This document shows, piece by piece, positions 41,009 to 62,013 of a stretch of 64,000 nt of DNA. The DNA is from Maritimibacter sp. DP1N21-5. GTDB taxonomy: Bacteria; Pseudomonadota; Alphaproteobacteria; Rhodobacterales; Rhodobacteraceae. How positions within the stretch are numbered: the stretch's first letter is position 1; each line of letters begins with the position of its first letter. The stretch is taken from NCBI RefSeq assembly GCF_019218295.1, contig NZ_JAHUZF010000001.1, forward strand, positions 62,001-126,000, given 5' to 3'. Position numbers and translations under genes: made by a program. Below the pieces are notes generated by a model, which worked only from the letters and a program-made list of their open reading frames with translations, had not been told where the DNA came from and made no database searches.

Positions 41009-41039
41009 TTGTATTCACAAGCGGTATATCCGTATACAA
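41009..41039. promoter_or_regulatory. TTGTAT...GTATACAA element before the first catabolic-island operon
   Basis: TTGTATTCACAA (41009-41020) faces GTATACAA (41032-41039), so TTGTAT and ATACAA are mirrored 25 bases apart. On the minus strand the second part reads TTTGTATACGGAT, the same as upstream of the acyl-CoA ligase at 52277. It ends 7 bases before ATG 41047, leaving little room for a Shine-Dalgarno site. Confidence 0.55.
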
Positions 41040-41046
41040 ATGCGCC

Positions 41047-41454
41047 ATGGAGGAGTTCACGATACCCGAAGGCCAGTTCGCGCTGACCGCCGAGATGGAC
41101 GACCGCCTGCGCCAGATGGCCGGGGCCGGTCCCCGCGCGGGCGACGGCGCGCATCCGATCTTTGCCTTGGTCGGCGCCTTGGGCGGGCTCGGCCTGCGCA
41201 TCGCCGAGCTATCGCGCGCGCTCGGACTCGACTTCGACGCAGGCCCCGTCCTTGCCCGTTGCCGGCTCGACTACGACGATCGCCTGCGTGTCGGCACGAC
41301 CTACCGGGTCGCGGCCCGCGTGGACGAGATCACCCGCAAACCCAGCCGGGTCTTCGGCCAGGCCGATCACCTGCACCTCTCCATCATGCTCCACGACGAC
41401 CGCCCTGTCAGCCGTGCCCGGCTCCACATCGTCTTTCCCGTGAGGACCCCATGA
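41047..41454 (+). CDS. MaoC-like hotdog protein, non-catalytic-type partner
   Basis: 135 residues with the MaoC N-terminal-domain pattern: HPIFALVGALGG, RLDYDDRLRVGTTYRVAARV, GQADHLHLSIML and RLHIVFPV. The D-x-N-x-x-H hydratase dyad is absent. It overlaps the next gene by 4 bases, and that gene encodes a hotdog with the dyad, so the two probably form a heteromeric (R)-enoyl-CoA hydratase. ATG 41047 lies directly after the operator-like element with no clear ribosome site; a leaderless start is possible. Confidence 0.72.
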   Translation: MEEFTIPEGQFALTAEMDDRLRQMAGAGPRAGDGAHPIFALVGALGGLGLRIAELSRALGLDFDAGPVLARCRLDYDDRLRVGTTYRVAARVDEITRKPSRVFGQADHLHLSIMLHDDRPVSRARLHIVFPVRTP

Positions 41455-41798
41455 CCCGCCGTTTCAAGGATATCTCCGGCCCCGACATGGCCGTCTGGTG
41501 CGAGATGCTCGCCGACGACAACGCCATCCACCTGTCGCGCTACGCCGCCCAAGCCGCGGGCTTCGGGCCACGCCGCGTGAACCCGGGACCCGCCAACCTC
41601 GCCTGTCTCATGTCGCTGGTGGGCGAGGATATTGCCCATGTGGACGCGCGCTTTTCCGGCAACGTCTTCGAAGGCGACGACCTGACCGCCGAGGTCACGT
41701 CCCACACCACGACCGAGACCGAAACCCGCCTGATCCGCGACGCCGACGGCGGCACCGTCGTCACTGCCACCTTCACCCGATCCAAGGACAAGTCATGA
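41451..41798 (+). CDS. MaoC-like enoyl-CoA hydratase, catalytic-type hotdog
   Basis: 115 residues, single hotdog. The MaoC hydratase motif is visible as MLADDNAIHLSRYAAQAAGF (Asp-x-x-x-x-His arrangement), followed by VNPGPANLACLMS. It is encoded between the other hotdog protein and the acyl-CoA ligase with 4-base overlaps on both sides, indicating tightly coupled translation. It would hydrate an enoyl-CoA or similar thioester; stereochemistry and substrate are unknown. Confidence 0.78.
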   Translation: MTRRFKDISGPDMAVWCEMLADDNAIHLSRYAAQAAGFGPRRVNPGPANLACLMSLVGEDIAHVDARFSGNVFEGDDLTAEVTSHTTTETETRLIRDADGGTVVTATFTRSKDKS

Positions 41799-43276
41799 GT
41801 GCTGAAGAAGCCTCCCGAACCACCGTCTACGCCCTCATCGCGATGCGCGCCCGCGTCACCCCCGATGCCCCCGCGCTGGAATGCGGCGGTCGTCGCCTGA
41901 CCTTCGCCCAGACCGTCGAGGCGGCCGACCGGATCGCCGCCGATTTCACCGCACGCGGTCTGACCCGGGGCGACCGGATCGCGGTGATTTCAGAGAACCG
42001 GATCGACTACACGCTCGTGCAACTGGCCGGGGCCAAACTGGGGCTCATCGTCGCTTGCCAGAACTGGCGCCTTCTGCCCGCCGATCTCGCCTATTGCGTC
42101 GCGCTCATCGACCCCGCGCTGGTGATCGCTTCCGAGCGTCACATGGCGCTCGCGACCGAGGTGGCCGGCAATGTCCCGGTGGCCCCCATCAACGGCCTCG
42201 GCGCATCCGGCGCGACCCCCTGCGCCGCCGAACCCGAGGACGGGCTCTTCATCATCTACACCTCCGGCACCACCGGGCGGCCCAAGGCGGCGGTCATCTC
42301 GCACCGGGCCCAGATCGCCCGGATGAGCGCCCTGCGCCTCGACATGGGGATCCTGCCCGGTGATGGCTATATTTCCTGGGCGCCCATGTTCCACATCGGC
42401 GGCACCGAGCATGTCATGTCGACCCTGATGAGCGGCGGCCCCAACGTGATCGTCGACAGCTTCGACCCCGACGCCGTCATCGACGCGCTGGAGACCCACC
42501 CCATTGGCTGGCTCATGCTGGTGCCCGCCACCATCGAGCCGCTCATCGCCCGGATGAAAGAAAGACGACCGAAAATCAAAGGCGTGCGTGGCGTCGGCTG
42601 CATGGCCGATCTCGTGCCGCTCGCCGTGGTGAACGAGATCACGACTTTGGTGAATGCGCCCTTCGTCAACTCCTTCGGCGCGACCGAAACCGGGATGGCG
42701 CCCCTTTCGGGCGGCATGATCCCCGTCGGAAAGGCGCATGACAGCCTGGCCAAGCAGCTCTCGATTCTGACCGAACTGCGCCTCGTCGGCCCAGACGGGC
42801 AGGACGTCGCCCCGGGCGAGGCGGGCGAGGCTTGGGTCCGGGGCCCGACGCTCTTCTCCGGCTACTGGAACGCGCCCGAGGTGAATGCCAAGGAATTCGC
42901 TGGCGGCTGGTTCCACATGGGGGACCTCTTCCGCCTTACGGCGCGCGGCTACGAATTCGCGGGCCGGTCGAAATACCTGATCAAGTCGGGCGGCGAGAAC
43001 ATCTATCCCGCCGAGATCGAGCGCATTCTCCTCGCCGACCCGCGCGTCGCGGATGCCATCGTGGTGAAGAAGGCCGACGACCGCTGGGGCGAAGTGCCAG
43101 TGGCCGTCATCGCCCGCCAGGACGAGACGCTGACCGAGGATCAGGTCAACGCGCTCTGCGCTGCGGAACTGGCAAGCTACAAGCGCCCACGAGGCGTGGT
43201 CTTCGTCGGCCTCGAGGACCTGCCGCGCAACGTCTCTGGCAAGATCCTGCGCGAGGCGGTCGAGGGCATGGTCTAG
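41795..43276 (+). CDS. Acyl-CoA synthetase (ANL family)
   Basis: 493 residues with the AMP-forming motifs YTSGTTGRPKAAVISH, FGATETGM, the hinge GGWFHMGDLFRLTARGYEF and GRSKYLIKSGGENIYPAEIE, and the catalytic C-terminal lysine in RNVSGKILREAV. ATG 41795 overlaps the hotdog gene stop. It activates a carboxylic acid to its CoA ester as the entry step of a beta-oxidation-like pathway. It differs clearly from the second ligase at 52372. Confidence 0.92.
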   Translation: MSAEEASRTTVYALIAMRARVTPDAPALECGGRRLTFAQTVEAADRIAADFTARGLTRGDRIAVISENRIDYTLVQLAGAKLGLIVACQNWRLLPADLAYCVALIDPALVIASERHMALATEVAGNVPVAPINGLGASGATPCAAEPEDGLFIIYTSGTTGRPKAAVISHRAQIARMSALRLDMGILPGDGYISWAPMFHIGGTEHVMSTLMSGGPNVIVDSFDPDAVIDALETHPIGWLMLVPATIEPLIARMKERRPKIKGVRGVGCMADLVPLAVVNEITTLVNAPFVNSFGATETGMAPLSGGMIPVGKAHDSLAKQLSILTELRLVGPDGQDVAPGEAGEAWVRGPTLFSGYWNAPEVNAKEFAGGWFHMGDLFRLTARGYEFAGRSKYLIKSGGENIYPAEIERILLADPRVADAIVVKKADDRWGEVPVAVIARQDETLTEDQVNALCAAELASYKRPRGVVFVGLEDLPRNVSGKILREAVEGMV

Positions 43277-43308
43277 GGACCAACACCACGCCCTGCCTAT
43301 GGTCCCGC

Positions 43309-45528
43309 TCAGCGCTTGAGCGTCGCCAGCATGGTCTGCCGCGTTGTCTCGCGCGCGGCCATCCGCAGCACCGCCGCGCGTTCCAGATCCCGCATCTCGG
43401 CCTCCGGCAGGGGGCGGGCGGGGTCGCCCTCCGGACCCCCCGTCAGCACCGTCGCCAGATCCGTCGCAACCGCGAGCGCAACGTCATCCAGCCGCCCCGC
43501 CGCGTGATGCGCCCGGGTCGCGGCAAGCGCCCCCGCCATCCCCGCCGGACCAGGAACCGACAGAAACGCCTCGGGCGGCGCAACGTAACCCTCGATCATC
43601 GCCCGCGCCCGCTCCATCGCCACCGGTTCCACATCGTCCAGATGCATCACGATATCGTCCGTGGGCCGGATCAGGTGGAGCCCCTGCGCCTCGGCGGCCG
43701 AGGTCGCGGTGGGGCCGGGGAGCAGAAGCTCCACCGTCCGGCCGGCAACGGCGGCAGGGCCCACCGCGCCGGTATCTGGGTTGGACAGCCGCTCGAACAT
43801 CCGCGTGCATCCGCCCCAGCCCGGCAGGATGCCAAGCTTGGGTTCCGGAAGGCCAAAACGCGCCTCGGCATGGGCGACGACGTGATCGGCATGGAGCGTG
43901 ATCTCGCATCCCCCGCCATAGGCAAGGCCGTGCACCGCCGCCACGACCGGCATCGGCGACTGGCGCAGCGCGGCAAAGGCGCTCTGGCCACGGGCGAGGA
44001 AGGCCTCAAGCCGCTGGGGATCTTCCGCGAGCGTCAGGAAGCTGGCGAGGTCGGCCCCCGCCGAAAACGCCCGCGCCGACCCCGGCGCCAGAACCAGCGC
44101 CTTGAGCCGGCCCCCGGCAAGCTCGGTGGCATGGTCGAGCACGTCGAAGACCTCGGGTGAAAACACCCCCATCTTCGTCAGTATGCGGAAGATGCCGATC
44201 CCGTCGCCGGCATCTTCGAGCCGCGCCGCGCCGTTGTCCGCGATCACCGGCAGGGCGGGCTTCGCGGCCGTCGTCCCGATGAACCGCCCCCGCGCCGCCG
44301 CCTCTGCGACCAAGGCGGGAACCGGCCCGCCTTCGCGCTCCAGACGGGCCGCGATGTAGTCGGCCCCGATCCGGTCGGCCTGCGCAAAGGGCCCCTCGCG
44401 CCAGCCGTAGCCAAGCGCCACCGCCGTGTCGATCGACGGCAGGTCATGGGCAATTTCGTCGGCCACCTCGGCGGTATAGGTCACGAGCCGCGCGAGCACC
44501 GTCCAGGCGTAATTGCCCAGTTTGCCCCCGCCCTCGATCAGCGCCTTCAGATCGCGCACCCGCTCGGGTCGGGCCTCGGGACGATAGTCGCGGGACGCGA
44601 GGTCCAGCGCCTCCCGCGCGCCCTCTGCGGTCCGCCGATAGAACCCGCCACCCGCCTTGCGGCCGAGCCGGCCCTTGGCGACCATGTCCTGCGCAAGCGG
44701 GGAGCCAGCAAGGTCATAGGCCCGAAACCCGTCCGATGCCGGGAGCGACCGGATCAGGCTGCCCCAGACCAGCGGGATAAGGTCGATCCCGATCAGGTCC
44801 AGTAGCCCGAAGACCCCCGTCGCGGGCACCCCGAAAGACGCAATGACCGCGTCGGCCTCTTCCACGGTCAGCCCCTGCGCCTCGGCCTCGAGCACCGCCA
44901 TGGCCATCCAGTAGCAACCGATGCGATTGGCGATGAAACCGGGCGTGTCGCGGCAATCGACCGTGGTCTTGCCAAGGATCGCCCGCCCCGCGCGATGCGC
45001 CCGCGCGACGCTCTCGGGGTCGGACTCGGGACCCGCGACGATCTCGAGCAACTGCATGTGGCGCGGCGGGTTGAAGAAATGCGAAATGACGAAGTCCCGC
45101 CCGAAGGCGTCGGACAGCCCCGCCACCAGATCGGCACGCTTCAGCGTCGAGGTATTGGACGACACCGTCGATCCCGGTTTGCGCAGCGCATCGAGCCGGG
45201 CATAAAGGTCGCGCTTGGCACCCAGATCCTCGATGATCGCCTCCACGATCCAGTCGGCCTCGGCCACCCGGTCGAGATGCGCGTCCGTGTTCCCGGTGCG
45301 CACCAGCCTCGCCGCCTCCGCCGACATGAAGCCGCCCACCTTGATCTGCCGGGCGAGCCCGCCTTCGGCCGGACCCGATCCACCCTCGGCATCGGGGATG
45401 TCGAGCAGGTCCACGGGAATACCCGCGTTCGCGAATTGCGCCGCGATCCCGCCCCCCATGGACCCCGCGCCGATCACGCAGGCCCGTTTCACACCGGTCG
45501 CTTGGGCTCCGAACACCTGACCGTCCAT
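43309..45528 (-). CDS. 3-hydroxyacyl-CoA dehydrogenase/enoyl-CoA hydratase fusion (HAD-ECH order)
   Basis: 739 residues. The dehydrogenase is N-terminal: RACVIGAGSMGGGIAAQFAN, SNTSTLK, catalytic His in VISHFFNPPRHMQLLEIVAG and DTPGFIANRIG. The hydratase/isomerase domain is C-terminal: RAFSAGADLASF, GLAYGGGCEITLHADHVV and FGLPEPKLGILPGWGG. This order is the reverse of E. coli FadB/FadJ and resembles Bacillus FadN. It overlaps the thiolase gene (TGATG), so both act in the same chain-shortening cycle. ATG 45528 was chosen from that overlap. Confidence 0.92.
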   Translation of the reverse strand: MDGQVFGAQATGVKRACVIGAGSMGGGIAAQFANAGIPVDLLDIPDAEGGSGPAEGGLARQIKVGGFMSAEAARLVRTGNTDAHLDRVAEADWIVEAIIEDLGAKRDLYARLDALRKPGSTVSSNTSTLKRADLVAGLSDAFGRDFVISHFFNPPRHMQLLEIVAGPESDPESVARAHRAGRAILGKTTVDCRDTPGFIANRIGCYWMAMAVLEAEAQGLTVEEADAVIASFGVPATGVFGLLDLIGIDLIPLVWGSLIRSLPASDGFRAYDLAGSPLAQDMVAKGRLGRKAGGGFYRRTAEGAREALDLASRDYRPEARPERVRDLKALIEGGGKLGNYAWTVLARLVTYTAEVADEIAHDLPSIDTAVALGYGWREGPFAQADRIGADYIAARLEREGGPVPALVAEAAARGRFIGTTAAKPALPVIADNGAARLEDAGDGIGIFRILTKMGVFSPEVFDVLDHATELAGGRLKALVLAPGSARAFSAGADLASFLTLAEDPQRLEAFLARGQSAFAALRQSPMPVVAAVHGLAYGGGCEITLHADHVVAHAEARFGLPEPKLGILPGWGGCTRMFERLSNPDTGAVGPAAVAGRTVELLLPGPTATSAAEAQGLHLIRPTDDIVMHLDDVEPVAMERARAMIEGYVAPPEAFLSVPGPAGMAGALAATRAHHAAGRLDDVALAVATDLATVLTGGPEGDPARPLPEAEMRDLERAAVLRMAARETTRQTMLATLKR

Positions 45529-46661
45529 CACGCCGCCTCCAGAACCATGGCGATACCCATGCCGCCGCCGATGCACTGGGTGGCAAGCCCGTAACGTTTG
45601 CCGTCCCGCTTGAGGAGCGACGCGGCCTTGCCGACGAGCCGCCCACCGGTCCCGCCCAAGGGATGACCAAGCGCGATGGCACCACCATCGACGTTGAGCG
45701 TCGCGGGGTCGATCTCGAGCTCCCGACGACAGGCCTCGGCCTGCGAGGCGAAGGCCTCGTTCATCTCGACGATGTCGATGTCCTTGATGGTGAGCCCCGC
45801 CCGTTTCATCGCCTTCTTCGAGCTTTCGACCGGCCCCATCCCCATGATCCCCGGCGCACAGCCCGACACGCCGAAGCCCGCGATCCGCGCGAGCGGGGTC
45901 AGGTCATGCCGCTTGAGGAAGGCCTCGGAACAGACCAGGAGCGCCGACGCGCCGTCGGTCATCGGCGAGGACGTCCCCGCCGTCACGCTGCCCCCGTCAA
46001 GGAAAGCAGGCTTCAGGGTGGACAGCTTGTCGAGCGAGGTCTCGCGCGGACAGCCGTCGGTATCGACCACCCCGGCGGCCGTTTCGACCGGAGTGATTTC
46101 CCCGGCCAGCCGCCCCTCGGCCTGCGCCGCCACGGCCTTTTGCTGGCTGACCAGCGCGAAGGCCTCCTGCGTCTCACGGTCCACGCCGTATTGCCGGGCC
46201 ACCCGCTCGGCGGTCAGGCCCACGTTGATGAAGTCGGCCACGTGATCCGCCGGCCATTCCGGCGGCGGTGCGATGTTGAAGCCCATCATCGGGACCCGCG
46301 TCATGCTCTCGGCCCCGCCCGCGACGAAGGCCTCGCCCGCGCCCATCAGGATCATCCCGGCGGCGACCTGAACCGCCTGCACCGACGAACCGCACCAGCG
46401 GTTCACGGTCATACCCGCCGTCGCCTCGGGCAGCCCGGCAAGAAGCCCGGTGATCCGCCCGATGTTGAGCCCCTGCTCGCCTTCCGGAAAGGCGCAGCCC
46501 CAGACGACATCCTCGATCTCGTCTCCCGGCACGCCGGTCCTTGCCAGAAGCCCGCGTATGGCCGCAGCCCCAAGGTGATCGGGCCGCACGCCGGCCAAGG
46601 CCCCCTTGCGGGCAAAGGTGAAGGGTGTGCGGGTATAGGCGGCGATATAGGCGGTCTGCAT
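45528..46661 (-). CDS. Acyl-CoA thiolase (acetyl-CoA C-acyltransferase)
   Basis: 377 residues with the thiolase nucleophile Cys90 in NRWCGSSVQAV, the His in GHPLGGTGGR and the second Cys in TQCIGGGMG. It starts at ATG 46661; the ATG at 46697 would read through the TTGTATACAG element. It is first in the operon with the HAD-ECH fusion and would release acetyl- or propionyl-CoA. It is paralogous to PcaF at 24292 but clearly distinct in sequence. Confidence 0.92.
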   Translation of the reverse strand: MQTAYIAAYTRTPFTFARKGALAGVRPDHLGAAAIRGLLARTGVPGDEIEDVVWGCAFPEGEQGLNIGRITGLLAGLPEATAGMTVNRWCGSSVQAVQVAAGMILMGAGEAFVAGGAESMTRVPMMGFNIAPPPEWPADHVADFINVGLTAERVARQYGVDRETQEAFALVSQQKAVAAQAEGRLAGEITPVETAAGVVDTDGCPRETSLDKLSTLKPAFLDGGSVTAGTSSPMTDGASALLVCSEAFLKRHDLTPLARIAGFGVSGCAPGIMGMGPVESSKKAMKRAGLTIKDIDIVEMNEAFASQAEACRRELEIDPATLNVDGGAIALGHPLGGTGGRLVGKAASLLKRDGKRYGLATQCIGGGMGIAMVLEAA

Positions 46662-46740: not shown

Positions 46741-47550
46741 TCAGGCGGTCGCGGATATGGTGAGAAGTTTGCGCGTGGCGCGGACAAGACGTGCGGCACG
46801 GTCGGCGGGGCTTACCCCGGTGTCGGCAAAGCGCTTCAGCGGAACCTCGATGTCGAGCGGACAGCCCTTAGGCAGGGCAGCAAGGAACTCGGGCAGGGGA
46901 AACTCGCCCTCGCCCGGAATGCCCCGGTTCTCCACCGCCTCGCCAAAGGGGCTTTCGGGCGCGCGGAGCGGCCCGTCACAGATCTGCGCCGCCCCGATGA
47001 GCGACGGATTGGTCCCCGCAAGGTCGGCAACACTGCCGCCCGTGCGAAACAGATGAAGCGGATCGACCAGCAGGCTCAGATTGTCATGCCCCGCCTCGCG
47101 CAGGAACTCGGCCCCTGCCCCGATCGACCGGCATTCGGAGAACTTCATGAACTCGACCGACACCGCGATGCCGCGTTCGCCCGCCAGATCCGCAAGCCCG
47201 CACATATTGGCCACGGCCCGCCTCCGGTCGGCATCCTGCACCAGCGCCGTGAGCCGCGTCGCGCCGAGCTCGGCGCCCAGATCCAGCGCCGGGAGGAAAT
47301 CCTCGGGCACCGTCTCCGGCCCGACCGAGAAAACCTCGACGTTGTGCACCCGTACGCCATGGTCGTCGCAGGCCGCCACGAAATCCCGCGCGCCCTGCCC
47401 GGCCTCGACCCTCGGGAAGATATCGAGTTTCGGCGACGGCGCGACGACGAAGACCGACACGCTGTCCACTCCCGCCCCCCGCGCGATTCCCGGAAGGTCC
47501 ACCGGAGCCACGTCGCGCAGGCACAGTTGATGCAGGGTCAATCGGGTCAT
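46741..47550 (-). CDS. Sugar phosphate isomerase/epimerase-like TIM-barrel protein (second copy)
   Basis: 269 residues similar in plan to the protein at 28755-29561: MTRLTLHQLCLRD, VSVEFMKFSECRSIG, LLVDPLHLFRTGGSVADLAG, AAQICDGP and GIPGEGEFPLPEFLAAL. Metal-ligand positions Glu, Asp-His, and Glu are retained. It overlaps livF by 4 bases and is the last gene of the Liv transporter operon, so it likely acts on the imported compound or its first product. No reaction can be named. Confidence 0.82.
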   Translation of the reverse strand: MTRLTLHQLCLRDVAPVDLPGIARGAGVDSVSVFVVAPSPKLDIFPRVEAGQGARDFVAACDDHGVRVHNVEVFSVGPETVPEDFLPALDLGAELGATRLTALVQDADRRRAVANMCGLADLAGERGIAVSVEFMKFSECRSIGAGAEFLREAGHDNLSLLVDPLHLFRTGGSVADLAGTNPSLIGAAQICDGPLRAPESPFGEAVENRGIPGEGEFPLPEFLAALPKGCPLDIEVPLKRFADTGVSPADRAARLVRATRKLLTISATA

Positions 47551-48260
47551 GCGCCCAGATAGCTCTCGATGATCGACGGGTTCTCGGCAATCTCGGCCGA
47601 GGTGCCCTCGTGCGAAATCACGCCACGTTCGAGCACATAGGCCCGCCGCGTGATCTCCAGCGCCCGATGCGCGTTCTGTTCGACCAGAAGCACGGTCAGC
47701 CCCTCGGCGTTGAGCTTCTTCAAGGCATCGAAGACCTGATCGGTGATCAGGGGTGACAGGCCCAGCGACGGCTCGTCGAGGAGAAGCAGCTCCGGCCCCC
47801 CCATCAGCGCCCGTCCAATGGCCAGCATCTGTTGCTGCCCGCCCGACAGCGTCCCCGCGATCTGGTTCCGGCGCTCTTCCAGCACGGGAAACAGCTCGTA
47901 GACATGATCGAGCGTATAGCGCGTCTGCCGCCCGCCCAGGGCGATCTGCCCGACCTGAAGGTTCTCGTAGACGCTCATGTCACCCAGAATCTGACGCCCC
48001 TCGGGCACATGCAAAAGCCCCCGGCGCGCCACGGCATGGGGATTGAGCCCCCGCGTCTCGGCCCCGTTGAACACAATCTCGCCGGACTTGCGTTTGACCA
48101 CGTTGGACAGCGCGTTGAGCAGCGTGGATTTTCCCGCGCCGTTCGAGCCGATCAGCGCGACCATCTCGCCCTCTTCGACCGTCAGCGACACGCCGCGCAG
48201 CGCCTTGATGCCCTTGTAGGAGACATGAAGGTCGGTGATGGACAGTTTCTCGTTCGCCAT
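47547..48260 (-). CDS. livF: Branched-chain amino acid-type ABC transporter ATP-binding protein (LivF family)
   Basis: 237 residues with Walker A GSNGAGKST, the LivF-specific RRGLLHVPEGRQILGDMSVYENL, signature LSGGQQQM, Walker B LLLLDEP and a family-typical C-terminus (SLGLSPLITDQVF, LLVEQNAHRALEI). One of two ATPases of the importer encoded at 47547-52044. In degradative clusters Liv-type importers often carry aromatic acids or other carboxylates rather than amino acids. Confidence 0.93.
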   Translation of the reverse strand: MANEKLSITDLHVSYKGIKALRGVSLTVEEGEMVALIGSNGAGKSTLLNALSNVVKRKSGEIVFNGAETRGLNPHAVARRGLLHVPEGRQILGDMSVYENLQVGQIALGGRQTRYTLDHVYELFPVLEERRNQIAGTLSGGQQQMLAIGRALMGGPELLLLDEPSLGLSPLITDQVFDALKKLNAEGLTVLLVEQNAHRALEITRRAYVLERGVISHEGTSAEIAENPSIIESYLGA

Positions 48261-48266
48261 GATGCC

Positions 48267-55306: not shown

Positions 55307-55338
55307 CCGCTCCTCCCAAAAAATACGTAACTTAGGGT

Positions 55339-55423: not shown

Positions 55424-56674
55424 ATGAAACAGTCCGATATCCAGCAGATCCTCGACCAGCAGGCCTTTGAATCCAAGCGTGGCGGCCCGCCCGAAGGGTT
55501 CCCGCAGCTTCCCGACATTCCCGGCGACCGCTACGTCGACCCGGAGTTCAACCGTCTCGAAGTCGAACGCATGTGGCACAAGACCTGGGTCTATGCCATC
55601 CACGCCGACGAGGTGCCCGAGGTCGGCTCTTACGTGCAATGGACCAGGCTGGGCGAACCGCTCTTCTTCATCCGGGGCGAGGACGAGCGCGTCCGCTGTT
55701 TCTACAACACCTGCCGCCACCGGGGCGCGCCGGTCGTCACCGAACCCTCCGGCAAGTCGCGCGGTGTGTCCTGCAAATATCACGGCTGGACCTACAACAC
55801 GCGCGGCGAGCTCATCAACCTGCGCGACCGCCGCGACTTCGTGAACCTCGACATGTCCTGCCGGTCGCTCATCGAAGTGCGCTGCGAGAACATCGGAAAC
55901 CTCTACTGGGTCAACCTCGACGACGACGCCGAGCCGCTGCGCGACTACCTCGGCCCGGTCGCCACCAACCTCGACGAATGCAAGCCCGACACGCTGATGC
56001 TGGTCGACAAGACGGCAATCAAGGTCGACTGCAACGTCAAAATCCTGCTGGATGCGTTCATGGAGGTCTATCACCTCAAGTCGATCCACCAGAACACCGT
56101 GGACCGCTTCCTCGACCACCGGGGCTCGGCCATCACGCTCTGGCCCAACGGCCACAGCCGCATGGTCACGCCCTACAAACGCGAAGGCTGGCGCGATCCC
56201 GGCGTCAAGGGCCTGCCCGAAGTCGAAGGCATGGAGCCCTGGTTCCGCGACACGAACTATTCCGTCCTCGCCTATCCGAACTTCGTCTCGCCCATCGCGA
56301 CCGCCGGTATCCCGGTGCTCTGCTTCTGGCCCGATACCATCGACACCATGACCATCGAGGTGCATTGGTTCGCGCCCTCCTGGGGCGACGGCGAGCGGCC
56401 CGAGATCTGGGACACGCGGCTCAAGAACTTCCTCGTCATCCTCGACGAGGACCTGCAATTCGCCGACAAGATCCAGAAGTCGGTGGAAAGCAAGGGCCTC
56501 AGGGGCTTCCCGCTCAACTATCAGGAACGACGCATCTACCATTGGCATGCCGAGCTTGACCGCCGCATCGGCCGCGACGACGTGCCCGAGGTGCTTCAGG
56601 TGCCGGACCGTCTGGGCGACTGGGTGGACGAACCCGATGCCGCCCAGGCCGTTGCCGAACCCGCCGAGACCTGA
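55424..56674 (+). CDS. Rieske non-haem iron ring-hydroxylating oxygenase, alpha subunit
   Basis: 416 residues. The Rieske centre ligands are Cys97-x-His99 (CRH) and Cys117-x2-His120 (CKYHGW); the catalytic iron ligands His217 and His222 appear in DAFMEVYHLKSIHQNTVDRF. There is a clean GGGAGG-type site before the ATG (AAGGGAGGAAGCACATG). It hydroxylates or demethylates a ring compound using electrons from a ferredoxin (54393). No beta subunit gene is adjacent, so a homotrimeric alpha-only oxygenase is likely. Substrate unknown. Confidence 0.93.
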   Translation: MKQSDIQQILDQQAFESKRGGPPEGFPQLPDIPGDRYVDPEFNRLEVERMWHKTWVYAIHADEVPEVGSYVQWTRLGEPLFFIRGEDERVRCFYNTCRHRGAPVVTEPSGKSRGVSCKYHGWTYNTRGELINLRDRRDFVNLDMSCRSLIEVRCENIGNLYWVNLDDDAEPLRDYLGPVATNLDECKPDTLMLVDKTAIKVDCNVKILLDAFMEVYHLKSIHQNTVDRFLDHRGSAITLWPNGHSRMVTPYKREGWRDPGVKGLPEVEGMEPWFRDTNYSVLAYPNFVSPIATAGIPVLCFWPDTIDTMTIEVHWFAPSWGDGERPEIWDTRLKNFLVILDEDLQFADKIQKSVESKGLRGFPLNYQERRIYHWHAELDRRIGRDDVPEVLQVPDRLGDWVDEPDAAQAVAEPAET

Positions 56675-56679: not shown

Positions 56680-57486
56680 ATGTCCTCCGACAGCGCAGAC
56701 CCGCCGGTTCTCGCCGCGCGGCATGAAGGCGCGCATGGGATGGTGCAGGTCATCACCCTCAATCGCCCGCATGTCTCGAACGCGATGAACGCCGAGGGCT
56801 CCTATCTCGTGGACCGTTACCTGCGCGAGGCCGAAGCCGACCCCGAAGTCGGCGCGATCATCCTCACCGGCGCGGGCGAGCGGGCCTTCTGTGCCGGCAT
56901 GGACCTCAAAGAGGCCGCTGAACGGGGCGCGGGCCACGGGCTCGTCCCTGGCGCGGGCTTCTGCGGCGTCACGGAACGGGTCATCGCCAAGCCCGTCATC
57001 GGCGCGATCAACGGCGCGGCGGTGGCGGGCGGGCTCGAAATCTCGCTCGCCTGCGACCTGCTCGTGGCGGGGTCCGGCGTCGTCTTCGGCCTGCCGGAAG
57101 TCAAACGCGGCATGGTCGCCTTCACCGGCGGCGTGCAGCGGCTTTCGACCCAGCTCCCCCGCCAGATCGCGATGGAGATCATCTGCGTCGGCAGCCTCAT
57201 CTCCGCCGAACGCCTGTATGAGCTGGGCGTGGTGAACCGCGTCGTGCCGCAGGCCGACGTGCTCCCTGCCGCGCTTGCGCTCGCCGACGACCTGCTGGCC
57301 AACTCGTGGACAGCGATCGCCTTCGGCAAGGAGCTTTTCAACCACGCCATGAACGAACCCCTTCCCGACGCCATCGCACGGGGTCACGCCAATGCCGACA
57401 GGCTTATGCGCTCGGACGACAGCCGCGAGGGCATCGCGGCCTATGCCGAAAAACGCAACGCCGATTTCAAGAGAGACAACCTATGA
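56680..57486 (+). CDS. Enoyl-CoA hydratase/isomerase family protein
   Basis: 268 residues of the crotonase fold: oxyanion-hole block RAFCAGMDLKEA, then AAVAGGLEISLACDLLVA with the first catalytic Glu and FGLPEVKRGMVAFTGG with the second. Both glutamates of true hydratases are present. It starts 5 bases after the Rieske gene and overlaps the SDR gene by 4 bases, so the three act together. Confidence 0.92.
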   Translation: MSSDSADPPVLAARHEGAHGMVQVITLNRPHVSNAMNAEGSYLVDRYLREAEADPEVGAIILTGAGERAFCAGMDLKEAAERGAGHGLVPGAGFCGVTERVIAKPVIGAINGAAVAGGLEISLACDLLVAGSGVVFGLPEVKRGMVAFTGGVQRLSTQLPRQIAMEIICVGSLISAERLYELGVVNRVVPQADVLPAALALADDLLANSWTAIAFGKELFNHAMNEPLPDAIARGHANADRLMRSDDSREGIAAYAEKRNADFKRDNL

Positions 57487-58349
57487 CCGACCAGACACCC
57501 GCGAAATGGGGCCTCACGCCCGACGAAATGGCGTCGCTTCCCACCGTCTTCGCCCCCGACCTGCTCGCAGGCCAACGCTTCCTCGTGACCGGCGGGAGCC
57601 AGGGCATGGGCAAGGCGATGGTCTTCCTCCTCGCCCGTCTGGGCGCGAAAGTCATGATCTGCGGCCGGACCGAGGACAAGCTCGTCCAGACCCAGCGCGA
57701 GGTGAAGGATCTCGTCGGGGCCGACATCTCCTTCCGCGCCATGTCGATCCGCGACGTGGATCAGGTGGACGCGCTGCTCGACGATACGTTCGAAGAATTC
57801 GGTGGCCTCGACACCCTCGTCAACAACGCGGGCGGGCAGTTTCCGCAGAACGCCATCGATTTTTCCCGCAAGGGCTGGAGCGCGGTCATTGACCTGAACC
57901 TCAACGGCACGTGGTGGATGATGCAGGGCGCGGCGCAACGCTGGCGCGACCGGGGCGAAGGCGGTCATATCATCTCGAACGTGGCCCACGTCGAACGCGG
58001 GATGCCGCAGGCCGCGCATACCTGCGCCGCACGTGCAGGCGTCATCTACATGTCGCGCACCGTGGCCACCGAATGGGCGCCGCTCGGCATCCGGGTGAAC
58101 TGCGTCGCGCCGGGCGCGATTGCGACCGAGGGGCTGTCAGCCTATCCGCCGGAAGCGACCAAGCGTTTCAACAACGTGAATCCGATGCGCCGCATGGGCA
58201 ATTCCTGGGACGTAGCTGAAGGCGTCGTCTACATGTCCGCGCCTTCGGGCAATTTCATCACCGGCGAGGTGCTGACCATCGACGGCGGCATGCGCATGTG
58301 GGGCACGGTCTGGCCCGCCGGCGTGCCGGAACAGTTTCAGGTCTACTAA
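57483..58349 (+). CDS. SDR-fold oxidoreductase lacking the Tyr-x3-Lys motif (dienoyl/enoyl-CoA reductase-like)
   Basis: 288 residues with the NAD(P) loop VTGGSQGMGKAMVF and NNAGG, and a normal C-terminus GEVLTIDGGMRMW. At the catalytic site the usual Y-x-x-x-K is replaced by HTCAARAG; this pattern (H...AARAGV) is typical of 2,4-dienoyl-CoA reductases and peroxisomal trans-enoyl-CoA reductases. It is therefore more likely a CoA-thioester reductase than an alcohol dehydrogenase. Third gene of the Rieske operon, followed by a strong hairpin. Confidence 0.88.
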   Translation: MTDQTPAKWGLTPDEMASLPTVFAPDLLAGQRFLVTGGSQGMGKAMVFLLARLGAKVMICGRTEDKLVQTQREVKDLVGADISFRAMSIRDVDQVDALLDDTFEEFGGLDTLVNNAGGQFPQNAIDFSRKGWSAVIDLNLNGTWWMMQGAAQRWRDRGEGGHIISNVAHVERGMPQAAHTCAARAGVIYMSRTVATEWAPLGIRVNCVAPGAIATEGLSAYPPEATKRFNNVNPMRRMGNSWDVAEGVVYMSAPSGNFITGEVLTIDGGMRMWGTVWPAGVPEQFQVY

Positions 58350-58386: not shown

Positions 58387-59115
58387 TTAGCGCGGGATCA
58401 TCGACATCATGTTCTTGGTCACGCCACCATCCACCACCAGCTCGTGGCCGTTCACATAGCTGGCCGCGTCGGACGCGAGCCACATCACCGCTTCGGCGAT
58501 GTCGCTTTCGGTCCCGAGCCTGCGGGACGGCACCGCCGCGCGCCGCCGCTCGGCCGCTTCCTCGTTCGCATAGATGCCCGTGGACATGCCGCCGTCGATC
58601 ATCCCCGGCGCGACCGCGTTGATCCGAAGCCCGAGCGGCCCCCATTCCTGCGCCATGAGTTCCGTCATCGCGGCGAGCCCCCGCTTGGCCGCCGCATAGG
58701 CATGGGTCCCCGGCGAGGTGCAGATTCCGCCGGTCGAAGTGATGTTCACGATCGACCCCGACCCGCGCGGGATCATGCGTTCCGCCGCCAGCCGCGATAC
58801 CGACACCGCCCCGGTGAGATTGATCGCGATGACCCGCTCGAACTCCGCCTTGGAGCACTCGAGGAGCGGCATGAAGGTCACGATGCCTGCGTTGTTGACC
58901 AGAAGATCGGGCACCGCCCCCATGGCGTCGAGCGCAGCCGTCACCGTGTCTTCCCGCGTCACGTCGCCCTTGAAGAACTGGACGCCCTTAAGGTCCTCGG
59001 GCAACCTGTCATCCGAGAGGTCGAGCACGGCGACCTCCCAGCCACGTGCCAGGGCCTGACGCGCTGTTTCCGCCCCAAGCCCTACGGTTCCGCCGGTGAT
59101 GAATGCCAGTGCCAT
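58387..59115 (-). CDS. Short-chain dehydrogenase/reductase, classical
   Basis: 242 residues: ALAFITGGTVGLGAETARQA nucleotide loop, LLVNNAGIV, catalytic Ser in VNITSTGG and Tyr-x3-Lys in HAYAAAKRGLAAM, and the C-terminal VNGHELVVDGGVTKN. It is probably an alcohol dehydrogenase on the ring or side chain of the island's substrate. ATG 59115 is used; the longer frame covers the divergent ANL-like gene. Confidence 0.92.
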   Translation of the reverse strand: MALAFITGGTVGLGAETARQALARGWEVAVLDLSDDRLPEDLKGVQFFKGDVTREDTVTAALDAMGAVPDLLVNNAGIVTFMPLLECSKAEFERVIAINLTGAVSVSRLAAERMIPRGSGSIVNITSTGGICTSPGTHAYAAAKRGLAAMTELMAQEWGPLGLRINAVAPGMIDGGMSTGIYANEEAAERRRAAVPSRRLGTESDIAEAVMWLASDAASYVNGHELVVDGGVTKNMMSMIPR

Positions 59116-59184: not shown

Positions 59185-60159
59185 ATGCGGATGACGGATC
59201 AGGACACCGCGCCGAACGAGGCCGCCGACACAGCCGAAAGCCTTGCCGAGGTGATCGCCGCGAGGGCGCGCAGCACCCCGGAGGCTCCCGCGCTGGGGGA
59301 CCTGACTTACCGCGATCTCGCCGACAGCATCGCGCCCCGTCACGAAGGCCCCGTAGTGGCGTTCGGGAAGGCACCCCTGGCGGACCTGCTCGCCCCGGTC
59401 TTCGCCGCGCTCGCCACCTCCGCCGTTGCGGTGGGGGCCGAGGGGCCGTTCAAGCGCACCCAGCCGGGCGAGCTTGTCCTCCCGATCCGGCGCGAGGACG
59501 GTGGGATCGACTTCGCCCGCCACCGGCAGACCGCACTCCTCGCCATGGCCCGCGCGCTTGCCACGCGTTTCGCCCTTTCGCCCCATGACCGCGTCTGGAT
59601 CGACGGCAGCGTGACCGACCCGGCGACATGGATGATCGCCTGCGCCGCCCTCGCTGCTGGTGCCCATATTTCCTTGGACGAAACCGACGCGACGGTGGCG
59701 TGGCAACTGCGCGGCGGGACGCCTCTGTCCACCCCCGACCTGCGCCTCATCCATCTGCGCGCCCCGCGTGAAGCGCTCGCCGCGCTGCAATCAGAACGCC
59801 CCAGCCTGACCGTGGTCAACGGTTTTGCCCTGCCCGAGGCCGGGGGGCTTCCCATAACCTCCGACCCCCGCGATCCGCCCGCCACGGTGCCCGGAACCGT
59901 GGGGCGCCCGCTCGCCGGAATGGAGGTCATGATCGTCGATCCCCGCAGCGGGATGGACATGCTCCTCTACCAGACCGGCGAGGTCTGGCTGCGCGGTCCC
60001 GGCCTCGTCGCGGGCTTCGCGAATGGCATTGCGCCTTTCGAGCCGGGCCATTTCCTGCGCACCGGCGTGCTCGGCTACCTCGACAGCGAAGGCCGCCTCG
60101 TGCTGCCCCGGACCGAGGAGGAAGCCCTCCATATCGAGCCGGAGGACGAGGCGGATTGA
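59185..60159 (+). CDS. Degenerate ANL-type (acyl-CoA synthetase-like) protein without ATP motif
   Basis: 324 residues. The N-terminus (LAEVIAARARSTPEAPALGD) and the C-terminus (GTVGRPLAGMEVMIVDP, GEVWLRGPGLVAGF, FLRTGVLGYLDSEGRLVLP) follow the ANL adenylation fold, but the P-loop motif YTSGTTGxPKG is missing, the core is shortened and there is no C-terminal domain with the catalytic lysine. It therefore cannot be a normal ligase. The reading frame is clean and preceded by GGAAGG, so it may be a pseudoenzyme or a regulator of a ligase in the cluster. Alternative: recently decayed gene. Confidence 0.7.
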   Translation: MRMTDQDTAPNEAADTAESLAEVIAARARSTPEAPALGDLTYRDLADSIAPRHEGPVVAFGKAPLADLLAPVFAALATSAVAVGAEGPFKRTQPGELVLPIRREDGGIDFARHRQTALLAMARALATRFALSPHDRVWIDGSVTDPATWMIACAALAAGAHISLDETDATVAWQLRGGTPLSTPDLRLIHLRAPREALAALQSERPSLTVVNGFALPEAGGLPITSDPRDPPATVPGTVGRPLAGMEVMIVDPRSGMDMLLYQTGEVWLRGPGLVAGFANGIAPFEPGHFLRTGVLGYLDSEGRLVLPRTEEEALHIEPEDEAD

Positions 60160-60180
60160 CGTATCCAGAACGTCATATTT

Positions 60181-60188
60181 CTGTATAC
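60181..60188. promoter_or_regulatory. CTGTATAC element upstream of the KstD-like gene
   Basis: TTTCTGTATACTTATATCG, 56-63 bases before ATG 60244 and 22 bases after the ANL-like stop, contains GTATAC in an AT-rich patch; TATACT could also serve as a -10 element. Confidence 0.4.
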
Positions 60189-60243
60189 TTATATCGCTAG
60201 TAACTGATACACTGCCGTGACTCATGACGGACGGGAGGCCAGC

Positions 60244-62013
60244 ATGGCGACAGACAACACACGAAAACACGATCGCACCGTCGACGTTCTGGTCGTCGGC
60301 TCCGGCGGGGCCGGGCTGACCGCCGCCGCCACCGCACGCGCCGCGGGGCTCGAGGTGCTGGTGACGGAGAAGGACAGCGTCTTCGGCGGCACCACCGCCA
60401 CGTCGGGCGGCGTCATCTGGATCCCGATGAACCGCCACGCGCAGAAACTCGGCGCCGAAATCGGTGTCTCCGACAGCATCGAGAACGCCCGCCTCTACCT
60501 CGAAAACGAGACCGGCCAATACATCGACCGCGACCGGATCGAGGCCTATCTCGCCTCCGGTCCCGTCATGGTCGACTTCATGGAACGCGAGACCGAGGTG
60601 AAATTCCACGCCATGGAGTTTCCCGACTACCACTCCGACGACGAAGGCGCTTCCACCATCCGGTCCCTGGGCACGCTTCCCTATGACGCGGGCAAGATGG
60701 GCCCGCTTATGAAGCGGCTGAAGGGCGAGCTGCCACAGACATTGTTCATGGGCCTCGCCCTCGGCTCCTCGCTCGAGATGAAGAACTTCATGAAGGCCGG
60801 GCGCTCCGTCACCGCCATGGGCTTCGTCGTCAAGCGCATGATCCGGCACTTCCGCGACCTCGCGCTCCACGGCTCGTCGCAAAGCATCGTGCGCGGGCGG
60901 GCGCTCATCGCACGGCTGGCCAAGACCCTCGATGACGCGGGTGTCGAGATCTGGACCGACAGTCCGGCAACCGAGCTTCTGACCGAAGGGGGCCGCGTCA
61001 CCGGCGCAAGGCTCACCACGCCCGACGGCGTCGTCACGATCCGGGCAACATACGGTGTCGTATTGGCCGCTGGCGGCTATCCGCGCGACCGGGACCGTCG
61101 CCGCGAAAATCACCCCGGCATCACCGCCACGATGGAGCCGGTCCTGCCCGTCCCGATGACCAACACCGGCGACGGCTCACGGCTCGCGGAATCCGTCGGC
61201 GGGCGCTGGAACGGCCATGTCTCGACCGCTGCCGCCTGGATGCCCACCTCGAAACTACCGGGCGCCACGGATTTCACCGGGGTCTGGCCGCATCTCGTGG
61301 ACCGCACCAAACCGGGCTTCATCATGGTCACGCCGGACGGGCGGCGATTGGTCAACGAGAGCCAGAACTACCGCGACCTGATCCCGGCCATGCTCGAGAA
61401 ATTCGAGGAACGCGGAACCGATGTGGCCTGGCTCGTGGCCGACGCGCGCGCCGTGAAACGCTGGGGCATCGGCTTCGTCCGGCCCTTCCCAATCCCGAAG
61501 GGACATTACCTGAGGAACGGCTATCTCAAGTCCGGGCGCACACTCGAAGAGCTGGCACAGGTCTGCGGCATCGACGGGGCCGAACTGACCGCAACCGTCG
61601 AGCGCTTCAACGGTTTCGCCCGAGCGGGCGATGACCTCGACTTTGGCCGCGGCAGGACGAAATACGAACGCCACCACGGCGATGACGAGCACAAGCCCAG
61701 CCCCTCGCTCGGCGCGCTGGAGCAGGGACCATTCTACGCCGTGCGTATCTATCCGGGCGAAATCACCAGCTACAAGGGCATGGCGACCGATGTGCATGCC
61801 CGGGTTCTGGGCCACGATGACCAGCCCATTCCGGGCCTCTACGCCGTCGGCAACGACCAGGCCAACGTCTTTGGCGGGGCCTATCCCGGCGCGGGCGCGA
61901 CCATCGGACCCGGCATGGTCTTTGGCTGGCGGGCGGGCAAGCACCTTGCCGAAGAGGCTGGCAAGCGCCTCCCCGGCGTCGCGGGCGAGACGGAACGACT
62001 GGCGGCGGAGTGA
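60244..62013 (+). CDS. FAD-dependent 3-ketosteroid delta-1-dehydrogenase-like flavoprotein
   Basis: 589 residues. N-terminal VLVVGSGGAGLTAAATARAA and FGGTTATSGGVIWIPMN, and C-terminal GPFYAVRIYPGEITSYKGMA, PIPGLYAVGNDQANVFGG and YPGAGATIGPGMVFGW are closely KstD-like. These enzymes desaturate ring ketones in steroids and related compounds. ATG 60244 follows a GGGAGG site. The family is broad, so the substrate may be any cyclic ketone or enone; assignment to steroids is only a possibility supported by the Rieske, SnoaL-like and MaoC-pair neighbours. Confidence 0.85.
   Translation: MATDNTRKHDRTVDVLVVGSGGAGLTAAATARAAGLEVLVTEKDSVFGGTTATSGGVIWIPMNRHAQKLGAEIGVSDSIENARLYLENETGQYIDRDRIEAYLASGPVMVDFMERETEVKFHAMEFPDYHSDDEGASTIRSLGTLPYDAGKMGPLMKRLKGELPQTLFMGLALGSSLEMKNFMKAGRSVTAMGFVVKRMIRHFRDLALHGSSQSIVRGRALIARLAKTLDDAGVEIWTDSPATELLTEGGRVTGARLTTPDGVVTIRATYGVVLAAGGYPRDRDRRRENHPGITATMEPVLPVPMTNTGDGSRLAESVGGRWNGHVSTAAAWMPTSKLPGATDFTGVWPHLVDRTKPGFIMVTPDGRRLVNESQNYRDLIPAMLEKFEERGTDVAWLVADARAVKRWGIGFVRPFPIPKGHYLRNGYLKSGRTLEELAQVCGIDGAELTATVERFNGFARAGDDLDFGRGRTKYERHHGDDEHKPSPSLGALEQGPFYAVRIYPGEITSYKGMATDVHARVLGHDDQPIPGLYAVGNDQANVFGGAYPGAGATIGPGMVFGWRAGKHLAEEAGKRLPGVAGETERLAAE

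Follow-up and report, generated by a model that had tools for sequence, protein, structure and literature searches.

The locus described here has a close counterpart in proteobacterial bile-acid side-chain catabolism (Shy-Sal, ChsH1-ChsH2-Ltp2), with which it has in common an acyl-CoA ligase, an acyl-CoA dehydrogenase, a KstD-like enzyme, a hydratase of the MaoC type that has a hotdog domain as its partner, and DUF35 alongside a thiolase-like protein. However, here DUF35 is a separate gene, the thiolase-like protein carries YDAF rather than YDHF or YDCY, and the set extends to ThuA proteins, a lipoamide complex, and two Rieske enzymes with a Glu bridge. Neither a KshA_C nor a BphC-type match was found. 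Group V Rieske monooxygenases (CntA, GbcA, Stc2) are similar to our Rieske alpha subunit (RHO) in that CntA has a Glu bridge and that no beta subunit was recognised beside RHO, but RHO has other partners. Acetoin and 2-oxoacid dehydrogenase complexes have the same E1alpha, E1beta, E2, and E3 genes as the complex reported below, which differs in sitting inside a Rieske module. Another relevant system, known here only from NCBIfam models, is cyclohexanecarboxylate aromatisation. The KstD-like FAD dehydrogenase (KSTD) scores 462 bits on ChcC2 and the classical SDR (SDR2) 133 bits on ChcB2, both far under the curated cut-offs of 900 and 350, and the score on the equivalog ChcC1 is 327 against a cut-off of 1000. 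Four relatives (L004, L006, L008, and L009) carry two tandem KSTD genes, a likeness to the ChcC1/ChcC2 system, but the genome studied here has one KSTD besides an FAD protein that is 32% identical to it, and the module adds two Rieske enzymes and CoA chemistry.

Our analysis indicates that island A, which lies within the window (the whole 64,000-nucleotide stretch of DNA that was analysed), is half of one two-part catabolic module. With moderate confidence, we read this module as serving the side-chain shortening and ring oxidation of a carboxylate, probably under one GntR regulator. By analogy with bile-acid side-chain catabolism, it would carry out the aerobic breakdown of a CoA-activated, probably alicyclic carboxylate. 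The analysis shows the gene content, the co-inheritance of both halves, a common promoter palindrome, and catalytic-residue patterns; the alicyclic ring, the order of the steps, the enzyme activities, and the control by this GntR are inferred. The signs that a side chain on a non-aromatic ring is processed are indirect.

Gene content of the two islands

The features of island A are collected in Table 1. Gene calling and Pfam/NCBIfam scans recovered, at 41047-62013, the gene classes listed in the original prediction, with some refinements. In the protein described as a HAD-ECH fusion, the ECH part stands, while the other part is 3HCDH. Both full ANL ligases are present, but a third, truncated ANL-like gene (ANLt) had gone unlisted. 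The two hotdog proteins are likewise there, with the fold of HD1 taken from a predicted model (pLDDT 92.7) that, among PDB entries, matches the ChsH1-ChsH2 hydratase best. ANLt was rejected as a pseudogene on the basis of omega values of 0.18-0.30 in three pairs (0.07 and 0.18 for the C-half in two pairs), which are rough, with dS up to 1.5; the protein may be a conserved ANL pseudoenzyme.

Table 1. Features of island A and its surroundings (window positions).
Feature	Position	Strand	Remarks
Operator-like sites TTGTATTCAC and CCGTATACAA	41009..41040		5' of HD1
HD1, hotdog half	41047..41454	+	No Pfam match; predicted fold similar to ChsH1-ChsH2 / itaconyl-CoA hydratase
HD2, MaoC-type hydratase half	41451..41798	+	DDNAIH (DxNxxH) motif; Pfam score 22.2, under cut-off 27
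ANL1, acyl-CoA ligase	41795..43276	+	Pfam/NCBIfam scans
3-hydroxyacyl-CoA dehydrogenase / enoyl-CoA hydratase fusion	43309..45531	-	Top NCBIfam match Staph_FadB, under cut-off
FadA-type thiolase	45528..46661	-	Nucleophile motif NRWCGS present
Xylose-isomerase-like TIM barrel (AP_endonuc_2)	46741..47502	-	Start 47460 or 47502, by gene call
LivF, LivG, LivM, LivH importer genes	47547..50798	-	Names taken from annotated Paracoccus orthologues
LivK-type binding protein	50902..52044	-	Peripla_BP_6
Operator-like site TTGTATACGG	52277..52286		Between LivK and ANL2
ANL2, acyl-CoA ligase	52372..54000	+	Pfam/NCBIfam; in 24/27 regions
SnoaL_2 protein	53997..54380	+	Pfam
2Fe-2S ferredoxin	54393..54710	-	Cys spacing C-x5-C-x2-C
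VOC protein	54779..55306	-	Glyoxalase_4; weak likeness to methylmalonyl-CoA epimerase
Footprint TTTGCATATACGA..TAAAAT	55338..55366		5' of RHO
RHO, Rieske oxygenase alpha subunit	55424..56674	+	Glu bridge in FMEVYHLKSIH
ECH, crotonase	56680..57486	+	Start 56680 or 56740, by gene call
SDR1, 2,4-dienoyl-CoA-reductase-like SDR	57483..58349	+	In 27/27 regions
SDR2, classical SDR	58387..59115	-	Pfam/NCBIfam
ANLt, truncated ANL-like protein	59185..60159	+	No P-loop, no C-terminal domain; purifying selection
KSTD, KstD-like FAD dehydrogenase	60244..62013	+	KstD catalytic residues kept; accessory, 12/27 regions
TRAP importer, possible further module piece	30979..34064	-	Homologues adjoin module in G020; DctP gene Pfam-scanned

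The best matches of LivK (at most 73 bits) and of the TIM barrel (at most 24 bits, to Lmo2234, IolI, and psicose epimerase) give no ligand hint. The Cys spacing of the ferredoxin is one that we take to be of the adrenodoxin type. No reductase gene was recognised among the scanned island genes, and the sole genome match to Reductase_C (PF14759) sits on another contig, C4. Two operator-like sites, at 34220 and 34580, are found near the TRAP importer genes. Omp85 and HlyD genes occur downstream of island A (62024-63951).

The window is carried on a 132,965-base contig (C1), a probable plasmid because of its Rep3 and ParAB genes. Outside the window, at C1:18447-44168, lies the 25-gene island B. 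It encodes a second Rieske enzyme (RHO2), DUF35 with the thiolase-like protein THL2, a CoA-transferase, an acyl-CoA dehydrogenase (ACAD; a general one by PDB match), a GntR regulator at C1:31818-32501, MaoC, the FAD protein related to KSTD, and a complex of the 2-oxoacid dehydrogenase type with all four of the E1alpha, E1beta, E2, and E3 genes. The module had been predicted to be complete within island A, but with this second half elsewhere on the contig, the predicted coordinates cover only about half of it. The E1 searches did not separate an acetoin type from a pyruvate type: E1alpha shares 43% identity with plasmid genes that bear the name acoA and 40-42% with others called pdhA, among the 60 of 269 records that were listed, and E1beta matches pyruvate dehydrogenase best (276 bits), followed by 2-oxoisovalerate dehydrogenase (235 bits).

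Proposed pathway and an aromatic alternative

In the proposed scheme, the carboxylate would be taken up by the Liv-type importer and converted to its CoA ester by the ANL ligases. The side chain at a ring carbon would then be shortened by the acyl-CoA dehydrogenase and either the split MaoC hydratase (HD1-HD2) or the MaoC of island B, and cut by THL2, acting as a thiolase-like retro-aldolase with its DUF35 partner. The ring would be oxidised by RHO, RHO2, and the SDRs, with KstD-type desaturation where that enzyme is present; electrons for the Rieske enzymes would come from two ferredoxins, perhaps via the single Reductase_C protein. The opened product would be handled by the E1-E2-E3 lipoamide complex and beta-oxidation enzymes.

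THL2 has an aldolase-like motif. In 9/9 rows, the NRWCGS/NRLCGS of thiolases is replaced in THL2 by DNNRTGGS, and YDAF is present. Against the Ltp2/Sal motif YD(H/C)(F/Y), whose aldolase residues were taken for comparison from an excerpt of PMC12329534, the base Tyr is kept, the nucleophile Cys is lost, and the third position is Ala instead of the His of Ltp2 or the Cys of Sal. A DUF35-type gene adjoins THL2 on C1 and in L015, L083, L084, and L092. The DUF35 protein of the window genome has no cysteines and hence lacks the zinc-site Cys, which, like the Ala, counts against this reading. That of L015 matches zf-ChsH2 at the cut-off (23.4 vs 23.2).

The combination of a Rieske enzyme, ANL ligase, thiolase-like protein, and DUF35 also recalls the ibuprofen genes. 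The substrate could accordingly be aromatic (a phenylpropanoid or a lignin- or drug-type aryl-alkanoate), with RHO oxygenating the ring of the CoA ester, by analogy with ibuprofen catabolism, before its products reach 3-oxoadipate. PcaIJF-type genes are present in the window, where PcaF exceeds its equivalog cut-off (663.9 vs 597), and a PcaF-like thiolase is found near the module in L083, L095, and G472 and near RHO in L065/L066. However, PcaIJF belong to a common general pathway, no ring-cleavage dioxygenase was recognised among the Pfam-scanned island genes, which included part of island B, the genome has no match of the BphC type, and KstD enzymes require a non-aromatic cyclic ketone. We consider an aromatic substrate unlikely.

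For the alicyclic carboxylate that we favour, a bolder proposal, to which we give a low probability, is a new aerobic ring opening without a ring-cleaving dioxygenase. RHO2, with its Glu bridge, and its SDR would make an acyloin or alpha-diketone from a ring C=C or C-H, the co-inherited E1-E2-E3 complex, acting like acetoin dehydrogenase, would split the C-C bond to yield an acyl-CoA, and the DUF35-aldolase would remove the side chain.

KSTD and the steroid route

The KSTD protein matches FAD_binding_2 (PF00890) at 281 bits, and its nearest PDB entry is the 3-oxosteroid 1-dehydrogenase 7p18 (307 bits over residues 11-570). Its FPDYH, NESQNYRD, and AYPGAG segments align to chain residues 139, 338, 507, and 511 of 4c3x, which we take to be the catalytic Tyr119, Tyr318, Tyr487, and Gly491 (the chain is numbered 20 higher), and all four positions are kept. 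Abscisic acid was rejected as a substrate, as its ring lacks the CH2-CH2 beside the ketone that KstD needs by known chemistry.

Together with the ChsH-like HD1, the Ltp2/Sal-like residues of THL2, and the presence of acyl-CoA ligases, acyl-CoA dehydrogenase, and thiolase, this protein could indicate the 9,10-seco route for steroids or bile acids, in which ring B is opened by KstD together with a Rieske 9-alpha-hydroxylase and ring A by an extradiol dioxygenase, with side-chain shortening left to a ChsH-like hydratase and aldolase. However, KSTD falls below the cut-offs of the steroid KstD models (452 vs 789, 398 vs 788, and 345 vs 793) and of every one of the 25 NCBIfam models shown, and RHO scores best with CntA and GbcA. 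The whole genome (99.82% complete) gave no match to KshA_C (PF19298) and none to TIGR03213 (BphC-type) at E<=0.001, in searches for which the control genomes supplied no positive above the cut-off; a distant HsaC could escape the latter search because TIGR03213 models a BphC relative. The suggestion of steroid degradation is not supported for the classical route, which we regard as very unlikely.

Co-inheritance and a shared promoter palindrome

The 21 genes of island A and the 25 of island B recur jointly in relatives, and on plasmids of Paracoccus pantotrophus and P. versutus the two halves form one continuous block. Island A is represented by 16/21 genes and island B by 21/25 in both L083 and L095, and by 6 and 18 genes, respectively, in Terrarubrum L084. 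As a control, the 76 other C1 genes gave only 8 matches across the 27 x 76 cells of a gene-by-region grid, so the joint recurrence of the island genes goes beyond chance. Among 385 genomes of the class, RHO is found in 16, RHO2 in 13, and both in 12 (Fisher p about 1e-18, relatedness ignored), and a draw from the family placed both in the same 2 of 149 genomes.

In 27 chosen regions with RHO, SDR1 was always present, ANL2 occurred in 24, and KSTD in 12. This count left out L085 (with SDR1 and ANL2), L086 (ANL2, no SDR1), and L118 (G314; 20 kb, neither), as well as L007, which is the same contig as G020; L012, L014, L019, and G298 were assessed by tblastn. The 64 other RHO loci, mostly with less than 55% RHO identity, have mostly different neighbours (SDR1 in 3, ANL2 in 2, RHO2 in 1, ACAD in 6, E1alpha in 8, and KSTD in none), and RHO-type enzymes of this family therefore also serve elsewhere. 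The co-inheritance implied by the original prediction is thus found in the close clade and is weak beyond it, and we rejected a RHO-SDR1-ANL2 neighbourhood shared by the whole of this Rieske family. In many regions the core persists without KSTD, HD1, and HD2, in a set where 21-kb loci can cut genes off, and ring-ketone desaturation is therefore not obligatory. G020 has RHO and RHO2, and KSTD was not found in it at E<=1e-150. With these counts, KSTD was rejected as the module core, and the island is not built around this dehydrogenase as had been proposed. What is supported is a dedicated, CoA-dependent uptake-and-degradation module with KstD-type and Rieske proteins. We found no named pathway with its gene set in the open-licence full-text literature, in keeping with the original prediction, in which the combination was not recognised as one.

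The promoters of the two halves also share a palindrome. TGTATACA, with at most one mismatch, is the commonest 8-base palindrome in the intergenic DNA of A and B, with 12 sites against a shuffle mean of 0.60 (0/500 shuffles reach 12), and it occurs at 10 of 16 intergenic regions there versus 2 of 29 elsewhere on C1. A general C1 motif was rejected, the other intergenic DNA having 5 sites in 6531 bases. Of the 17 regions from relatives with gene calls, 12 hold more copies of the palindrome than any of 100 shuffles; those of L083, L095, L013, L092, and G472 show no enrichment, and in just 3 of the 17 is it the top-ranked palindrome. The ten-base TTGTATACAA, with one mismatch, was not enriched genome-wide (11 places vs 16 for the reversed control). 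Because TGTATACA marks promoters in both halves, one GntR may control them; because two other C1 promoter regions carry it, its use may extend beyond a single GntR. By eye, the footprint 5' of RHO is similar in the nearest loci, and it may be the promoter itself.

These data bear on whether the islands are instead two unconnected pathways with nothing in common but a plasmid and a regulator family. On C1, about 59 kb lie between the halves, KSTD and HD1/HD2/ANL1 come and go among regions, and the operator-like site is also present at other C1 promoters. Against this, the halves are contiguous and interleaved in L083, L084, L095, and G020, and RHO and RHO2 co-occur, which leaves two separate pathways with a very small probability.

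The Rieske enzymes

A Glu occupies the bridge position in 17/17 RHO and 10/10 RHO2 orthologues, near-duplicate Paracoccus records included, as it does in CntA (E205, in an excerpt of PMC7948474). This and the best scores of RHO, with CntA in the PDB (just 96 bits) and with GbcA in NCBIfam (103 bits, far under the cut-off of 670), could suggest quaternary-ammonium oxygenases of Group V, acting on a betaine-like carboxylate, with CoA activation of its skeleton as the next step. However, the CxxC pair, described in an excerpt of PMC10952381 for CntA and Stc2 and as confined to 'some' members of Group V, is missing from both enzymes, which have E-V-Y-H-L (RHO) and E-S-Y-H-V (RHO2) at these positions. 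Phe aligns to Tyr203 of CntA, and as the top PDB match of RHO2, the 3NT oxygenase 5xbp (104 bits) narrowly outscores CntA (99 bits). As two Rieske enzymes, KSTD, and a hydratase/aldolase set also misfit a small betaine, this alternative is highly improbable.

Implications

By their record names, the carriers are presumably alphaproteobacteria of several orders, with the gene set often on plasmids. Related RHO genes also occur in small genomes (1.3-1.9 Mb), for which a marine origin is our guess. The analysis also draws attention to two clades of Rieske enzymes with a Glu bridge, to a conserved ANL pseudoenzyme, and to a thiolase-like protein in which one motif resembles that of aldolases. If the ring-opening proposal were true, it would provide a route by which terpenoid acids or carboxyl-rich alicyclic acids in natural dissolved organic matter are degraded. 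If our reading of the two-part module is true, the module would mark its carriers as having an unrecognised route for ring-shaped acids.

Gene content of the two islands

Using a codon-based gene call together with Pfam and NCBIfam scans, we found that the gene list of the original prediction for the catabolic island in the window (island A) was borne out. The module is a real, conserved catabolic gene set that matches no assigned pathway. Its description as complete did not hold, as island A spans about half of the module and a second island (island B) lies on the same contig, C1. Among the matches listed in the NCBIfam scan of 10 island-A proteins, none reached an equivalog cut-off, and the thiolase was the only protein above a subfamily cut-off (TIGR01930, 414 against 240.6). 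Contig C1 (132,965 bases, with the window at C1:62001-126000) carries replication and partition genes and is most likely a plasmid.

Features of the window and contig C1; bare coordinates refer to the window, C1: to the whole contig
Feature	Coordinates	Content
Island A	41047-62013	21 genes
Island B	C1:18447-44168	25 genes; families from scans, unscanned genes named via annotated or scanned orthologues
Island B, genes 1-5		SnoaL_4, THL2, DUF35, CoA-transferase III, SDR
Island B, genes 6-10		RHO2, MaoC, ThuA, alpha/beta-hydrolase, Rieske ferredoxin
Island B, genes 11-15		ACAD, E1alpha, E1beta, E2, GntR
Island B, genes 16-20		VOC, SDR, ANL, ThuA, SDR
Island B, genes 21-25		ECH, E3, AKR, GMC, 456-residue FAD protein
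Island-B GntR	C1:31818
Replication and partition genes	C1:14139-18397	Rep3-type initiator, ParA/ParB-like
Third ANL-like gene	59185-60159
Second FCD-GntR gene	18551	preceded by three adjacent TGTATACA-like sites, 18503-18523
Sites before TRAP operon	34220, 34580	TGTATACA-like
TRAP importer region	28100-34064	EthD, TIM barrel, SnoaL_4, NmrA, TRAP importer
Pca genes	23046-25485	PcaI/PcaJ-family CoA-transferase, PcaF thiolase (equivalog score 663.9, cut-off 597)
Tcu tricarballylate genes	19231-21682	TcuA (678 against 369), TcuB
4-oxalomesaconate tautomerase	14382-15470	470.8 against 440
676-residue protein	12334-14364	beside the tautomerase and Tcu genes
TPP riboswitch	8201-8301	minus strand; 70.5 bits; upstream of a minus-strand gene run ending near position 120

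One island-A gene absent from the predicted list is a third ANL-like (acyl-CoA ligase-like) gene. The P-loop, TGD aspartate and C-terminal domain are lost in the window copy and seven aligned orthologues, while its second half is strongly conserved (SDPRDP, MIVDP, GEVWLRG) and purifying selection acts on the gene (three pairs gave omega 0.18-0.30; two pairs gave 0.07 and 0.18 for the C-terminal half). Its structural model, of modest confidence (pLDDT 73.9), matched ANL-type enzymes, and we read the protein as a probable conserved pseudoenzyme, a remnant of the ANL N-domain. Elsewhere in the window, the PcaI start was probably called late, since the gene call begins at model position 50; Pca homologues also occur near RHO, the island-A Rieske oxygenase, in loci L065 and L066.

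Co-inheritance and spread of the module

Families of both islands occur in single stretches on plasmids of Paracoccus pantotrophus (L083) and P. versutus (pTAV3, L095), each with 16/21 genes of A and 21/25 of B, as well as on a Terrarubrum plasmid (L084; 6/21 and 18/25) and in genome G020 (12/21 and 19/25). Another P. pantotrophus region, L094, has 12/25 of B, the record ending inside the region. Locus L007 was counted as part of G020, since its contig and G020:C19 are equally long (266,305 bases).

RHO served as the query for collecting relatives (the best 80 of 351 were kept, giving 79 loci), which means that its presence in these loci follows from the sampling. We chose 27 regions, comprising 15 of these loci, six plasmid regions and six genome regions, and counted a gene as present if it matched with at least 40% identity across half its length. 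SDR1 (2,4-dienoyl-CoA-reductase-like) was present in 27/27 and ECH in 20/27; KSTD, the KstD-like dehydrogenase, was found in 12/27 and in none of the other 64 RHO loci. The ligase ANL2 was present in 24/27, VOC and the ferredoxin in 18/27 each, and, from island B, the second Rieske oxygenase RHO2 in 15/27, E1alpha of the lipoamide complex in 13/27 and the acyl-CoA dehydrogenase ACAD in 11/27; the 21-kb loci lower these island-B counts, and 6/27 regions are Paracoccus records. With three further regions added, SDR1 reached 28/30 and ANL2 26/30. As a control, 76 other C1 genes were compared with the same regions; the 27 x 76 cells contained eight matches, of which five were to TRAP, NmrA and EthD genes of the TRAP importer region in G020.

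A universal RHO neighbourhood was rejected, as the other 64 loci, in which RHO is mostly below 55% identity and many of which are short, mostly lack SDR1 (3/64) and ANL2 (2/64); RHO2 occurred in one, ACAD in six and E1alpha in eight. This weaker linkage in distant loci concerns the module's spread, not its nature here.

Without any choice of loci, RHO (E<=1e-100) was found in 2/149 family genomes, both of which also have RHO2, and no others do. Among 385 genomes of the class, 16 had RHO, 13 had RHO2 and 12 had both (Fisher p ~1e-18, relatedness ignored), although four of these 12 (G187, G314, G411, G487) have several copies within large Rieske families, so that the two genes can be distant. 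RHO stood without RHO2 in G197, G239, G271 and G374, and RHO2 without RHO in G417. The four multi-copy genomes belong to one family and have 49-84 Rieske candidates with at least four RHO2-type matches each; a Novosphingobium locus (L093) also has several. Three genomes of 1.3-1.4 Mb (G197, G321, G493) encode an RHO-type enzyme at 52-54% identity, and in G493 homologues of E1, E2, RHO2 and ThuA share its contig. Among the best 80 of 351 relatives, a Hoeflea RHO is closer to that of the window (86%) than Paracoccus RHO (75-77%), which, with the patchy distribution, suggests spread by transfer.

A shared candidate operator

Allowing one mismatch, TGTATACA occurs at 12 sites in the 2316 intergenic bases of both islands (seven in A, five in B), compared to 0.60 in dinucleotide shuffles, none of 500 of which reached 12. 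It is the commonest of the 256 eight-base palindromes in this DNA (runner-up, five) and is present in 10/16 intergenic regions of the islands against 2/29 elsewhere on C1, these two preceding the second GntR gene and the TRAP operon; genic DNA of C1 has one site. In relatives, it exceeded all 100 shuffles in 12/17 regions with gene calls and was the top palindrome in 3/17; enrichment was absent in L083, L095, L013, L092 and G472, and a ten-base form was not enriched genome-wide. We infer that the island-B GntR would control both islands through these putative operator sites, which the second GntR (35% identical) could share. In G020, homologues of EthD, NmrA and three TRAP genes adjoin the module, and their region in the window may form a third part of this regulon.

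Enzymes and proposed pathway

KSTD aligned to solved KstD enzymes with 307 and 223 bits and retains their catalytic tyrosines and glycine. Among the small hotdog-type proteins, HD1 gave a high-confidence model that, among solved structures, most resembles the ChsH1-ChsH2 hydratase (E 9e-7) and itaconyl-CoA hydratase, and HD2 has a DDNAIH motif. No KshA_C or TIGR03213 (BphC) match was found genome-wide, the control genomes likewise lacking a positive over the cut-off, and neither a classical steroid route nor BphC-type meta cleavage is thus supported; Chc-type NCBIfam models scored far under cut-off for island-A proteins.

THL2 is a PRK06158-type thiolase-like protein (539 bits against 421, over the 321 residues scanned). 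In 9/9 aligned rows it has DNNRTGGS at the site of NRWCGS/NRLCGS in the window's own thiolases, together with a YDAF motif. The corresponding motifs are YDHF in Ltp2 and YDCY in Sal, the tyrosine being the base in the former and essential in the latter, according to passages of PMC12329534; THL2 shares this tyrosine with both but has alanine at the Sal cysteine. These residues make thiolase activity of THL2 improbable, and our best guess is an aldolase. The DUF35 protein of the Maritimibacter genome has no cysteines.

Both Rieske oxygenases have intact Rieske and iron motifs with glutamate as the bridge residue, in a DAFxExYHxxxIH-like motif found in 17/17 RHO and 10/10 RHO2 orthologues (the I is V in one RHO2). 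The usual bridge residue is aspartate, described as a "universally conserved Asp" in PMC5033481, and that of CntA is given as E205 in PMC7948474. RHO and RHO2 lack the CxxC pair noted for CntA and Stc2 in PMC10952381. RHO electrons may be supplied via the island ferredoxin and the sole Reductase_C protein found in the genome, on contig C4. The passages of PMC6946804 on SAR202 ocean bacteria discuss ring-oxygenase expansions, with no mention of this module found in them.

The data show which genes are present, how they are linked, the palindrome they share and the residues they keep; the step order, enzyme activities and ring type of the candidate pathway are inferred. The substrate would be imported by the Liv-type transporter (the G020 region has TRAP homologues, and no Liv genes were found there) and activated to a CoA ester, which ACAD would dehydrogenate; hydration by HD1-HD2 or MaoC would precede retro-aldol cleavage by THL2-DUF35. 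It is unlikely that the lipoamide complex itself opens the ring after RHO2. RHO, RHO2 and the SDRs, with KSTD in some carriers, would oxidize the ring, and the opened product would pass to the lipoamide complex and the beta-oxidation genes.
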